DNA of 34,686 nucleotides from Planctomycetota bacterium (lineage in GTDB: Bacteria > Planctomycetota > B129-G9 > JAJDCN01), in NCBI GenBank assembly GCA_029260815.1, contig JAJDCN010000072.1, positions 1-34,686 on the forward strand, given 5' to 3'. The notes beneath the pieces were generated by a model. That model saw only the letters and a program-made list of their open reading frames with translations. It was not told where the DNA came from and made no database searches. Positions 20,669 through 32,693 of the stretch are shown one piece after another (positions within the stretch are counted from its first letter, which is position 1; the number at the start of each line of letters is the position of its first letter). The position numbers and the translations under genes were made by a program.

Positions 20669-21868
20669 ATGAGCCTGATTTCCATCCAAGCCCACTTTCG
20701 CCGCGCCGTTCGGTTCGACCGCAACGAGTTTTCGGGTGCCTTTGGGGATATCGGAACCGATTTTCCCCTGGTGGTTGGTATGATCCTTGTCGGCGGGCTC
20801 GACGCCGCGAATGTTTTGATCCTTTTTGGGGCGATGCAGATCTTCGCAGGCCTGACTTATGGCATCCCTATGCCCGCCCAGCCACTCAAGGTGATGGCGG
20901 TGCTCGTCATTACAAGCGGGGGCCAGATTACCGGGCCGATCCTCTACGGCGGCGGCTTGGCGATTGGTGCGATCATGTTGCTACTCACGGCCAGCGGCCT
21001 GATCGACGCCCTGGCCCGGGCGATCCCCAAGTGCGTCATCCGTGGAATCCAGTTCGGGCTGGGTCTGAAGTTGGCCCACATGGCGTTGCAATACATGCAG
21101 GGGACAGGCCAGGCGGGGTTTGGCCAGGAACAAAGACTTCATGCGTATATCTTGGCGACGCTCGCCTTCGCGTTGACGCTGAGCCTGATGGGCAATCGGA
21201 AGATTCCGCCGGCCCCCTTCGTCATCCTGCTGGGTGTGGTCTACGCCCTGATCTTTAAGACCGACGCCCACACGTTCCAAGACAATGTCCGGTTTGCCGT
21301 GCCCAGCTTCCAGGCGCCAGGGTGGGAAGATATCTGGCAGGGATTCTACCTGCTGGCTCTCGCGCAAATCCCGCTGTCCCTGGGCAACTCGATTCTTGCG
21401 ACACGCCAGGTGGCACAGGATTTGTTCCCCGACCGGGCGCCCAGCGTTCGAAAAATCGGTCTGACCTATTCATTGATGAACCTGGTCAGTCCGTTTTTCG
21501 GCGGGATCCCAACCTGCCACGGCTCCGGCGGCATGGTCGGCCATCATGCCTTTGGCGCGCGAACTGGTGGATCCGGCGTTCTCTACGGTTCGTTTTACCT
21601 GGTCTTGGGACTGGTCTTCAGTCCAGGATTTTCGAAGCTGATCCAGTTCTTTCCGCTCCCGGTTCTCGGCGTAATTCTTCTGTTCGAAGGGCTCTATCTG
21701 ATGCGCATGATACGCGACCTTACCGACACCTCCAAGCGATTCGCGATCGCGCTATTGGTCGGCCTGATCGCCTTCGGCCTTCCCTACGGCTACGTCATCG
21801 GATTGGTGGTGGGCACGGTCTTGGCGTATGTGGCTCGGCGCAACCTTGTCGGCCTTGAACAGGAATGA
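20669..21868 (+). CDS. MOT1-family molybdate/sulfate transporter-like protein
   Basis: 399-aa polytopic protein; NEFSGAFGDIGTDFPLVVGMIL, GIPMPAQPLKVMAVL, GGIPTCHGSGGMVGHHAFGARTGGSG are typical of the MOT1 (PF16983-type) family. Confidence 0.9.
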   Translation: MSLISIQAHFRRAVRFDRNEFSGAFGDIGTDFPLVVGMILVGGLDAANVLILFGAMQIFAGLTYGIPMPAQPLKVMAVLVITSGGQITGPILYGGGLAIGAIMLLLTASGLIDALARAIPKCVIRGIQFGLGLKLAHMALQYMQGTGQAGFGQEQRLHAYILATLAFALTLSLMGNRKIPPAPFVILLGVVYALIFKTDAHTFQDNVRFAVPSFQAPGWEDIWQGFYLLALAQIPLSLGNSILATRQVAQDLFPDRAPSVRKIGLTYSLMNLVSPFFGGIPTCHGSGGMVGHHAFGARTGGSGVLYGSFYLVLGLVFSPGFSKLIQFFPLPVLGVILLFEGLYLMRMIRDLTDTSKRFAIALLVGLIAFGLPYGYVIGLVVGTVLAYVARRNLVGLEQE

Positions 21869-22272: not shown

Positions 22273-22905
22273 ATGTCGCCCACAATTGAAATCACCCGAG
22301 CCAAATGGCTCCAGAGCAAAGTCAAGCTCGCCCACTCCAGACAACAAGCGATCTCCGCGGCCTTTCTGACACGGTTCGGCCTGGAGGCCACGCGCGCCAT
22401 GGCCGCGCTGCCGCTGCCCAAGGCCCACCCCAAAACCATCGAGGACAAGATTGCCGTGGTAGAGACCCGGGAGGCCTCGCTGATCGCCACGTTCATCAGC
22501 ACCTTCGGCGGCCGGGCACGGGCCGTGGCTTCCGAAGCGGCTCGCAAGCACGGCATCGAAACGGGGCGGTCGGCAACCAAAGTCATCCATGCAACTCACA
22601 CCACGCCCGAGCATATTTACAGTGCTTTGCGCTATTTCCTCCTGGATGGCGGGCCCGAGGCGCCCGAGCCGGTAATCATGGAAAACACGCCCAAGCGGTT
22701 TACATGGTCGCGAATCGTCTGTCCAAACCACGCATACTGGTCCGAGGACACGGCAAACTACCTGTTCCTTGTACAAATTGAAGCCGAATGGATTAGCGGC
22801 TTTGTCGAAGGGTATTGCTATAGCGCGTCGCACACCCGTGACATTTACATGAATATCGGTCCCGCCTCCTATTGCGATACAATTGTTGTCGAAAATCTAA
22901 AATAG
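22273..22905 (+). CDS. Hypothetical protein, weakly resembling L-2-amino-thiazoline-4-carboxylic acid hydrolase/V4R-like folds
   Basis: 210-aa ORF in a tight gene cluster; terminal GPASYCDTIVVE loosely resembles GdpyCxfxi motifs. Family assignment is weak. Confidence 0.5.
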   Translation: MSPTIEITRAKWLQSKVKLAHSRQQAISAAFLTRFGLEATRAMAALPLPKAHPKTIEDKIAVVETREASLIATFISTFGGRARAVASEAARKHGIETGRSATKVIHATHTTPEHIYSALRYFLLDGGPEAPEPVIMENTPKRFTWSRIVCPNHAYWSEDTANYLFLVQIEAEWISGFVEGYCYSASHTRDIYMNIGPASYCDTIVVENLK

Positions 22906-22923: not shown

Positions 22924-23805
22924 ATGGAGTGGGAGAAGCAATCTGAAATCTTGTTGAATCGGGTCCCTTTCTTCGTCCGCAAGATGGTGCGAAGAAAGGT
23001 CGAGGAATACGCCGTGTCCGTGGGCGCACAGACCGTCACGCAAGAGCACGTGCATGCGGCCAAGCAGAAGGGCCGGCCCGTCGGGCCGGCTGTCGATCCG
23101 AACGATCGCTTTTCTGTGATCCGACGGATCGAGAATATCCCGGCCGACCAGGAATCTATCCCCATGTACGCAGTCGAGGCCTGTCAAGCTGATGGGATCG
23201 ACTGCCCCATGTCCGTCGCGGAGGGGCACCGGCTCACCGAACAGATCCATCAAATTCTGGAAAAAAGCGGCCTCACCGACTTCATTACCAATTCTGTATC
23301 GGGCCCGCTATTGCCCCATCATCGCTTTAAAGTCTCCATCTCCTCCTGCCCAAACTCCTGCTCCCAAGCCCAGATCAAGGACGTTGGGATCATCGCCCAG
23401 CTCAAACCCAAACTGAACAATGGCGAATGCTCTCAGTGCGGGCAGTGCGTGGAGGCTTGCCGCGAAGGCGCCATTGCCCTTCAGGATGAAGATCCAGGCA
23501 TCTGCCTCGATGCGGGCCAGTGCGTCTACTGCGGTGTCTGTATCCGTGCATGCCCGACCGACGCTCTGGACGAAGAGGAGGGCTGCGGGTACGCCTTATA
23601 CCTCGGTGGACGACTGGGCCGTCGACCGCGCCTGGGAGAGAAAGCGGCTGACCTGCTTTCCACACGGCAGTTGTTGGCAGTGTTTGAACGGATCGTTTCG
23701 TTTTACACGACCCACGCCCAACCCGGCGAGCGCTTCTCCCATGTGGTCGAACGTCTCGGCTTGCAAGATGTTGCTGCGGGTATCGAGCTTCCGTTTCGTC
23801 CATGA
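22924..23805 (+). CDS. PCP_red domain + nitrite/sulfite reductase-like 4Fe-4S domain + 2x[4Fe-4S] ferredoxin fusion
   Basis: N-terminus EKQSEILLNRVPFFVRKMVRRKVEEYAVSVGAQTVTQEHVHAAK is PCP_red-like; CQADGIDC and SSCPNSCSQAQIKDVGI resemble a siroheme/4Fe-4S cluster half; CSQCGQCVEAC and CVYCGVCIRACPTDAL are ferredoxin motifs. Confidence 0.85.
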   Translation: MEWEKQSEILLNRVPFFVRKMVRRKVEEYAVSVGAQTVTQEHVHAAKQKGRPVGPAVDPNDRFSVIRRIENIPADQESIPMYAVEACQADGIDCPMSVAEGHRLTEQIHQILEKSGLTDFITNSVSGPLLPHHRFKVSISSCPNSCSQAQIKDVGIIAQLKPKLNNGECSQCGQCVEACREGAIALQDEDPGICLDAGQCVYCGVCIRACPTDALDEEEGCGYALYLGGRLGRRPRLGEKAADLLSTRQLLAVFERIVSFYTTHAQPGERFSHVVERLGLQDVAAGIELPFRP

Positions 23806-24515
23806 CCACTGCGGTGATGAGTGCGCTTCCTGAAGAAACCGCATCAATTCTGAATTCCATGTCCGACAGAACCCCGCTGTACGTCGGTTTACCGAAAACC
23901 TTTCGTGGCACCGTCGCCGGCCGGGAAGTCGTTCACGCAATCGTGGGCGTGGGCCCATGCCGTTCTGCCCGTTCCGCCCGAATCATTTTGGAGAAAGTTG
24001 GTCCCAGCCGTGTGATCGTCTGCGGCTTTGCCGGCGGCCTGGATACAACGGCGCCGCCCGGCACAGTGATTTTGGCAACGGATTTCGTTTTGGAAGAACG
24101 CCTGAAACAATCGCGTTCGCAACTGCTTCGGCGTCTGTTGCCATATCTTCCGCGACGGATCGGCCCTCTGTGCGAGCCGGTGGTTGCCGACCGCAAGCTA
24201 CTTGCCACAGCCGGGCAGGTCATCGCCCAAGCCCCCGTGGCCTCGGGCCGAATGGTCAGCACATGGATTCCCGTCCTCAATCCAGCGACCCGCGCCTCCT
24301 TGCGTACTGCGTCGAGGGCGATCGCGGTGGATATGGAGTGCGCCGCCGTGGCTCAGGTGGCCGCCCAGCACGGCATTCCCTGCCTTGGGATCAAGACCAT
24401 TTCCGACCGAGCCTCCTGGGCGGGCGGGCTTCAATTTCGCCGCAACGCCGCCCGCTGGGCCGGGCGGCACCAGTCGATTGTCCTTCAATGGCTCCAACAG
24501 GACGACGACCTGTAG
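23802..24515 (+). CDS. Nucleoside phosphorylase/nucleosidase-like protein (MTAN/PNP superfamily)
   Basis: VCGFAGGLDTTAPPGTVILATDFV, AIAVDMECAAVAQVAAQHGIPCLGIKTISDRA; 4-bp overlap with the PCP_red gene. Confidence 0.82.
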   Translation: MTTAVMSALPEETASILNSMSDRTPLYVGLPKTFRGTVAGREVVHAIVGVGPCRSARSARIILEKVGPSRVIVCGFAGGLDTTAPPGTVILATDFVLEERLKQSRSQLLRRLLPYLPRRIGPLCEPVVADRKLLATAGQVIAQAPVASGRMVSTWIPVLNPATRASLRTASRAIAVDMECAAVAQVAAQHGIPCLGIKTISDRASWAGGLQFRRNAARWAGRHQSIVLQWLQQDDDL

Positions 24516-31078: not shown

Positions 31079-31948
31079 CTATTTGCGTTTTTGGTTCTTC
31101 ACCACCGCGGTAGGCAACGCCTCTAGGAGGTCTGAGGCAATCACCGAATGTTCCCCCACCGCCTGCCGGGCGAGATCGCCCGCCAACCCGTGCACGTGAG
31201 CTCCGAAAATAGCCGCATCCATTGCATCCATCCCCTGGGCCAAAGCCCCGGCAATGATCCCGGCGAGTACATCGCCGCACCCCGCGGTGGCCATCCCTGG
31301 ATTGCCCGTCTTGTTTTCGTAACATCGCTTTCCATCGGTCACGACCGTCCGATGGCCCTTGAGCAACATGACCGCACCGTGCTTTCCGGCAAAGGCCGCT
31401 GCCGCGGCGATGCGCTCGGTGGTCGTTCGGCCCGGCCGCACACCAGTGAGTCGTTCGAATTCGCCCGGGTGCGGTGTCAGAACGGCACGTCCACCAAACT
31501 GGACACGCCTCACCATCCGCATCGCCGCCAGGGCGTTGAGGCCATCCGCATCGACCACGCACGGGATCTCACAGCGGGCAAGGACCTTGCGTGCCAGCGC
31601 GGCGGTCTGCGGCTGCTGCGACAGCCCCGGACCGATGGCTAGTACGTCGCCCTCGATCAACAACTGCTGGATCGGCAAAAATGCCGACGCCGCCAGCGCT
31701 CCTTCAGCGGTTTCCGGGAGCGGCCGCGTCATTGTCTCGGTCAGCTTTGCCTCCAGGATCCCGTTCAACGACTTGGGGATGCCCAAGGTCACCAGCCCCG
31801 CTCCCACACGCAAGGCAGCCTGACAGGTGAGGGCTGCCGCTCCGGTCATGCCACGAGACCCGGCGAGGACCACGACATGGCCGAAGTCGTTCTTGTGTGC
31901 CTCTCGCGGGCGGGTCGACAGCTTGGGGATCGCTCTAACGGTCTTCAT
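31079..31948 (-). CDS. nnrD: ADP/ATP-dependent NAD(P)H-hydrate dehydratase
   Basis: HKNDFGHVVVLAGSRGMTGAAALTCQAALRVGAGLVTLG; VLTPHPGEFERLTG; GNPGMATAGCGDVLAGIIAGALAQG. Only the dehydratase domain is present. Confidence 0.92.
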   Translation of the reverse strand: MKTVRAIPKLSTRPREAHKNDFGHVVVLAGSRGMTGAAALTCQAALRVGAGLVTLGIPKSLNGILEAKLTETMTRPLPETAEGALAASAFLPIQQLLIEGDVLAIGPGLSQQPQTAALARKVLARCEIPCVVDADGLNALAAMRMVRRVQFGGRAVLTPHPGEFERLTGVRPGRTTTERIAAAAAFAGKHGAVMLLKGHRTVVTDGKRCYENKTGNPGMATAGCGDVLAGIIAGALAQGMDAMDAAIFGAHVHGLAGDLARQAVGEHSVIASDLLEALPTAVVKNQKRK

Positions 31949-32693
31949 CGGTCCGGTTGATCAGAGAGGCCACATAACCGGCGCCAAATCCGTTGTCGAT
32001 ATTGACCACGGTTACACCGGCGGCGCAGGAATTGAGCATTGCCAACAACGGTGTGATCCCCCCAAAGGCGGCTCCATAGCCCACCGAAGTGGGCACCGCA
32101 ATGACCGGGCGGGCGACCATGCCCCCAACCACCGATGCCAAGGCGCCCTCCATTCCAGCTACGACGATCAGCACGTTGGCCGCTTGAATGCCAGGCGAAT
32201 TGTTGATGAGCCGATGGATTCCGGCCACGCCCACATCGAACAGAGTCTCCACTTTGTTTCCCATGATTTCGGCTGTGACCCGCGCCTCTTCGGCCACCGG
32301 GATGTCGGAAGTTCCCGCCGAGACCACCAGGATCGCTTTCCCCGACGGTTTCGACGGAGCCTTTTCGTACGTAATCGCGCGAGCAACCTTATGGTATTTC
32401 GCTTTCGGAAGAACCTTCTTCACCGCGGTGTACGCCGCCCGGTCTGCTCGCGTGGCCAATAGCTTGTCGGCGTGTTTGAGAATCTCTTTTGCGATGCGTG
32501 CGACCTGGACCGGGGTCTTGCCCTGGCCGAAGATCACCTCAGGAAACCCGCAGCGAAGGTCGCGGTGGGAGTCGACCCTGGCGAAAGAGACGTCCTGATA
32601 GGGCGGCGCTTTGAGGGCGCCCACGGCGTCGGCCACGGAAGTCTTTCCGCTTTTCACGTCGTCGAGCAGTTTTCGAAGGTGCTTTGCGTTCAT
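31935..32693 (-). CDS. larB: Nickel pincer cofactor biosynthesis protein LarB
   Basis: AILVVSAGTSDIPVAEEARVTAEIMGNKVETLFDVGVAGIHRLI, VVAGMEGALASVVGGMVARPVIAVPTSVGYGAAFGGITPLLAMLNSCAAGVTVVNIDNGFGAGYVA: hallmark LarB (AIR carboxylase-like) sequence. Confidence 0.94.
   Translation of the reverse strand: MNAKHLRKLLDDVKSGKTSVADAVGALKAPPYQDVSFARVDSHRDLRCGFPEVIFGQGKTPVQVARIAKEILKHADKLLATRADRAAYTAVKKVLPKAKYHKVARAITYEKAPSKPSGKAILVVSAGTSDIPVAEEARVTAEIMGNKVETLFDVGVAGIHRLINNSPGIQAANVLIVVAGMEGALASVVGGMVARPVIAVPTSVGYGAAFGGITPLLAMLNSCAAGVTVVNIDNGFGAGYVASLINRTDEDR

Follow-up and report, generated by a model that had tools for sequence, protein, structure and literature searches.

What would a 293-aa protein do that joins a PCP_red domain, known from subunit B of DPOR (BchB/ChlB), to half of a sulfite reductase and to two 4Fe-4S motifs, in a planctomycetotal genome and away from any photosynthesis genes? 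The gene, here called T, lies in a contig of 34,686 nucleotides from a Planctomycetota bacterium; the window denotes this whole stretch.

Domain architecture of T

The open reading frame was confirmed from its ATG start onward, and the following features are needed below.

22924-23805, + strand: T gene, 293 aa, with PCP_red, half sulfite reductase and 2x[4Fe-4S] (open reading frame and Pfam, homologues, model)
22930-23064, + strand: PCP_red domain, residues 3-47 (Pfam PF08369, genome HMM coordinates, 2kru fold match)
23182-23205, + strand: first cysteine pair, C87-X6-C94, of the siroheme-[4Fe-4S] motif, with Tyr82 ahead of it where sulfite reductases have Arg (sequence; reference residues from PMC10229431)
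23203-23793, + strand: NIR_SIR (PF01077) sulfite/nitrite reductase half, split by a ferredoxin insert (Pfam, fold match)
23347-23361, + strand: second cysteine pair, CPNSC, C142-X3-C146 (sequence, alignment)
23416-23571, + strand: inserted ferredoxin with two 4Fe-4S motifs, about residues 165-216 (Pfam, Fsr alignment, fold match)
23802-24515, + strand: nucleosidase of the PNP_UDP_1 family (MTA/SAH or futalosine type) whose frame shares 4 bp with T

In Pfam, PCP_red (family consensus MxW..A...KKVPFFVRKxVRxRVE) was matched at E=2e-14 and 53.6 bits against a cut-off of 32.5, NIR_SIR spanned residues 94-289 at 3.5e-20 and 72.5 bits against 27, and both Fer4 and Fer4_7 exceeded their cut-offs within residues 165-216. 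Together with the structural matches described below, these assignments bear out the initial annotation, which had read PCP_red, a sulfite reductase segment and two 4Fe-4S motifs from this one protein. Its remark that the window holds no chlorophyll or dsr genes also agrees with our inspection: neither BchB/N/L nor dsr was apparent among the window ORFs inspected, part of which were run against Pfam. An HMM search revealed T to be the sole PCP_red gene of its 3.5-Mb genome, and the only other NIR_SIR gene there encodes an ordinary sulfite/nitrite reductase of ~560 aa on a separate contig. T and the overlapping nucleosidase, which scores under every specific NCBIfam cut-off, are probably co-translated.

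A predicted sulfite reductase fold without its sulfite site

The AlphaFold model of T, built with 45 homologues (mean pLDDT 88.5), matched the sulfite reductase domain of Fsr (Foldseek 1.3e-15) and the Dsr subunits (about 1e-11), while its N-terminus matched 2kru, the NMR structure of PCP_red (TM 0.76 by target length, E 0.008). A search of the viral structure library with the model gave no match. Fsr is the closest solved relative (phmmer 3e-27, Foldseek 1e-15), and its C-terminal domain shares with T the NIR_SIR half, the CPNxC motif, the predicted fold and the inserted 2x[4Fe-4S] ferredoxin, which sits at the same position in Fsr, AsrC and Dsr. Unlike Fsr, T has no F420 oxidase domain and no NIR_SIR_ferr half-domain, and carries an N-terminal PCP_red domain instead. 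AsrC and the AsrC-like small sulfite reductases resemble T in length and in combining NIR_SIR with two ferredoxin motifs, but T adds PCP_red and lacks PF03460 (NIR_SIR_ferr), which was absent from it at E<=1; two AsrC-like paralogues from related genomes, used as positive controls, have both PF03460 (about 1e-20) and PF01077. The best NCBIfam match of T is the AsrC model TIGR02912, which it fails (81.1 bits against a cut-off of 324.1). The likeness to BchB/ChlB is restricted to the 45-aa PCP_red domain, for which 2kru and 2ynm were matched by sequence and 2kru by fold; Pfam detected no nitrogenase-like catalytic domain, and the BchB model aligned to residues 2-49 only (39.5 bits against 490). 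A DPOR relative was thus rejected as the identity of T, this small domain alone being in common.

In MjFsr, sulfite is bound by Arg355, Arg423, Lys460 and Lys462, which are perfectly conserved across sulfite reductases (PMC10229431). We compared these positions in an alignment of 45 sequences of the T family. Given the absence of the NIR_SIR_ferr half-domain, the Arg355 region would be missing from T, with PCP_red in its place. The Arg423 position, five residues ahead of the first cysteine, is Tyr82 in T and aromatic in 43 of the 45 members; that of Lys460 is Arg134 in T and Glu in 34 of the 45; and that of Lys462 remains Lys136 in T, or Arg among members. T has therefore lost two or three of the four substrate-binding residues. 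In contrast to these losses, the four cluster cysteines are invariant across the 45 sequences, as are His132, Gln150 and Asp153, and the family hardly varies in CPNxCS..QIxD, in GGxxGR and in His132, near the cluster cysteines. The spacing of the first pair is C-X6-C in T and its anammox relatives and the canonical C-X5-C in most other members. The phrase "half-siroheme site" in the initial annotation is apt, with the four cysteines kept and the companion half-domain gone. With the metal site retained and the substrate residues and half-domain lost, T resembles a sulfite reductase scaffold preserved for the metal site and no longer used on sulfite.

That T might simply be a small sulfite reductase of the AsrC/Fsr type is a reading to which the kinship with Fsr and the shared ferredoxin insert lend some appeal. 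It is very improbable all the same, because PF03460 is lacking in T and present in both AsrC-like paralogues, the substrate residues are lost, and the role is already taken by a separate AsrC-like gene in Brocadiaceae and by the ~560-aa reductase in the window's genome. The domain and residue losses against the positive-control paralogues led us to reject it. Judged by its sequence, T is not classed as a member of the sulfite reductase family, as it fails two defining tests, NIR_SIR_ferr and the four basic substrate residues. Of the two substrates that the initial annotation had proposed for a compact redox module, tetrapyrrole-like or sulfur, the latter is disfavoured by these same losses.

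T belongs to a recurrent family

A single-sequence scan of genome contigs with T found zero relatives, and an alignment-based scan found 271, of which the best 80, all full length, were taken. These best 80 are mostly from Desulfobacterota and also include Alkaliphilus, another clostridium, deltaproteobacterial MAGs labelled Myxococcota by the tree tool, and Planctomycetota, among them Ca. Brocadia and Ca. Scalindua. Relatives that match T along nearly its whole length at 31-40% identity, and keep its domain order, come from three or more phyla, so the fusion is not a matter of chance. An assembly artefact was ruled out as its source, as the same fusion is found in independent genomes, including single-contig chromosomes. 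The fusion is no isolated oddity but marks a recurrent family of Desulfobacterota, Bacillota and anammox Planctomycetota. A search of plasmids gave partial matches only, mostly of AsrC type.

The Ca. Brocadia and Ca. Scalindua versions of T share 85% identity with members of two families in the phylum of the window, f43 and f93; by this protein identity the families would be Brocadiaceae and Scalinduaceae, respectively, and the phylum Planctomycetota. The tree unites the anammox proteins in one clade (100/99), whereas the window's T stands apart, weakly adjoining a Bacillota clade (80/83). Members in two further families, f74 and f97, have no PCP_red, f97 representing the minimal form, and none of four f74 genomes searched has PCP_red as a separate gene. 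The domain is therefore accessory, and dispensable, within the T family.

T is encoded with siroheme decarboxylase in anammox bacteria

The genomic context of T was most consistent in Planctomycetota. The order T-ahbA-ahbB, with ahbA directly behind T, was found in all 29 readable carriers of Brocadiaceae, Scalinduaceae and f74, a count taken from gene coordinates, with full gene maps for a subset. The T and ahbA reading frames share 4 bp in Brocadiaceae, and in one genome (G051) the genes downstream of T score over the NCBIfam cut-offs for AhbA and AhbB, that is, siroheme decarboxylase. The substrate that had been left "of unknown identity" can be narrowed through this operon link. In a phylum sample of 392 planctomycetotal genomes, with AhbAB scored by PF17805, this family was present in 31 of the 32 T carriers and in 66 of the 392 genomes overall (Fisher p 2e-26, a value inflated by relatedness and operon structure); in the sole exception, the contig stops right after T. 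Two of the carriers lie outside the three families, the window's genome and G353, and both have ahbAB, unlinked to T (p=0.01).

In the window's genome, AhbA and AhbB are encoded in one fused ORF (246 and 253 bits against cut-offs of 140 and 125) that lies on another contig and that T does not adjoin. AhbD (525.6 bits against 500) and an AhbC/NirJ1-like enzyme (503 and 493 bits, with cut-offs of 650) are encoded on contigs different from that of T. Six planctomycetotal genomes were tested for an AhbC-family protein; each has one, and in five it exceeds the cut-off. The fused gene (L065:7907-8920, contig C257) lies beside a radical SAM gene and a MoaE-like gene, as read by eye, and the AhbC/NirJ1-like gene shares 4 bp with a gene for a SagB-type dehydrogenase (L167:4645-7283, contig C211).

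Strict as it is in the three families, the linkage of ahbAB to T was not seen in the window's genome or at the loci inspected from Desulfobacterota and Bacillota. PF17805 was present in 13 of 13 tested genomes among the contig-scan relatives. Since the Ahb pathway is expected widely in sulfate reducers (PMC11306076), co-occurrence with T there says little. The link is not absolute, because the Bacillota carrier G762 has T, and neither PF17805 nor AhbC was found in this genome, which may be incomplete. In four anammox genomes (G121, G327 and G365 of Brocadiaceae, G373 of Scalinduaceae), an AsrC-like paralogue alone was found, and neither T nor PF17805; such co-absence is weak evidence, because operon genes get lost together. 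One of the four genomes is 100% complete.

T is not homologous to AhbA, AhbB, AhbC or AhbD. The accessible portions of PMC3942049, PMC7242693 and PMC11306076 contain no fourth Ahb component resembling it. The open-access papers searched yielded none that links anammox bacteria to siroheme decarboxylase or to siroheme-based heme synthesis, and nothing relevant on PCP_red combined with sulfite reductase.

PCP_red outside T and outside photosynthesis

Anammox and related genomes carry PCP_red in several other proteins:

L177:733-2793 (G051), L179:817-2715 (G088), L178:1542-3302 (G353): AhbD/NirJ2-like radical SAM enzymes fused to PCP_red (copies in G088 by eye)
L180:1172-2518 (G051), L178:219-1541 (G353): tandem universal stress protein with C-terminal PCP_red
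L183:1180-2034 (G353): protein of 284 aa combining a rubredoxin-like knuckle with three PCP_red domains

The AhbD/NirJ2-like proteins are radical SAM/SPASM enzymes with two or three copies of the domain, scoring up to 343 bits against a cut-off of 500. This fusion, together with the ahbAB operon, supports the tetrapyrrole part of the substrate proposal in the initial annotation. PCP_red as a tetrapyrrole-specific marker is weakened by its occurrence in the universal stress protein and rubredoxin-like fusions. Taken across these genes, PCP_red recurs in anaerobes as a general module that has one strong connection to the Ahb pathway, and its presence should not be taken to signal photosynthesis. 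The universal stress protein gene of G051 lies just upstream of genes that look, by eye, like subunits of a nitrite oxidoreductase type.

Possible functions of T

We tentatively favour, at somewhat under an even chance, the reading that T would be a redox partner of the siroheme-to-heme (Ahb) route that handles siroheme or another iron tetrapyrrole. Such a role would account for the operon and for the two domains related to tetrapyrrole enzymes, and it would explain why the metal site was kept while the sulfite site was lost. The T-ahbA-ahbB order, the co-occurrence with AhbAB, the PCP_red domains on the AhbD/NirJ2-like enzyme of the same anammox genomes, and the derivation of both NIR_SIR and the DPOR domain from tetrapyrrole enzymes count for it. 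Against it count the position of the window's T away from ahbAB, the other contexts described below, G762, and a PCP_red domain that is neither tetrapyrrole-specific nor indispensable. At the four-cysteine site, an iron tetrapyrrole may lie next to a [4Fe-4S] cluster, the two ferredoxin clusters could wire this site to a soluble donor or acceptor, and the PCP_red helices might serve to dock or shield either the tetrapyrrole or a partner protein. T may thereby hand siroheme to AhbAB, or give or take electrons at the AhbC/AhbD steps.

Elsewhere, T keeps other company. Among the best 80 of the 271 relatives, 19 loci have hcp, frdX-like ferredoxin, HD or Crp-family genes in the vicinity of T, and the arrangement hcp-HD-frdX-T recurs at several of them. 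Hcp and FrdX are the targets after which HcpR of sulfate reducers is named (PMC5701242); flavodiiron genes are near T at 7 loci and HAO-like multihaem cytochromes at 3. Three Bacillota genomes have a run of nrfA-like, resB-like and ccsB genes followed by T. These contexts are compatible with the heme route provided that heme must be supplied or protected in them, as for multihaem NrfA and HAO-like proteins, and they fit at least as well the main rival, a diverged siroheme-[4Fe-4S] reductase that detoxifies a nitrogen oxide (nitrite, NO or hydroxylamine) with ferredoxin electrons passing through the two built-in clusters. The metabolism of anammox bacteria runs on nitrite, NO and hydroxylamine. 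Small sulfite reductases are known or suspected to reduce nitrite (PMC10949509). We consider this reading rather improbable: T lacks the half-domain that bears one substrate-binding Arg in sulfite reductases, the exchanges of Arg423 and Lys460 run through most of the family, and the strict ahbAB operon of anammox bacteria is left unexplained. Another possibility, which we judge unlikely, is that T only transfers electrons through its [4Fe-4S] clusters, the siroheme site being vestigial and PCP_red and the half-reductase scaffold docking AhbC/AhbD, Hcp/FrdX or cytochrome maturation proteins. Invariant cluster cysteines beside lost substrate residues, varied redox neighbourhoods that would suit a general donor, and the minimal form retained in f97 speak for this, but the near-invariance of CPNxCS..QIxD, GGxxGR and His132 goes beyond the needs of a vestigial pocket.

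Within the Ahb reading, a more specific proposal is possible, albeit doubtful: T may take part in bacterial siroheme-dependent heme synthesis as a component so far overlooked in anammox bacteria and other anaerobes, either a siroheme carrier or a tetrapyrrole redox enzyme derived from sulfite reductase, with PCP_red as a docking module common to DPOR and the AhbD-like radical SAM enzyme. If true, this would support an exchange of parts between siroheme-using reductases and enzymes that consume siroheme as a heme precursor. On present sequence comparisons, the proteins are best described as a family of degenerate, PCP_red-bearing relatives of sulfite reductase whose genes are strongly linked to those of siroheme decarboxylase. 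Cytochromes are abundant in anammox bacteria, whose demand for heme is high. The T-ahbA-ahbB operon offers a direct, testable way into heme making in these organisms and suggests a redox or carrier protein missing from the Ahb pathway, whose electron flow is not settled with regard to AhbD radical quenching (PMC11306076).

Other genes around T

A 210-aa ORF directly upstream of T (window 22273-22905) is without a Pfam or NCBIfam match, and two genes upstream lies a MOT1-type molybdate transporter gene (20669-21868, PF16983). A protein resembling LarB by eye is encoded 8 kb from T (31935-32693, - strand), and LarB-like genes, also by eye, lie at most about 6 kb from T in several Brocadiaceae loci (L046, L048, L056, L057); their recurrence near T in the window and in Brocadiaceae could be residual synteny.
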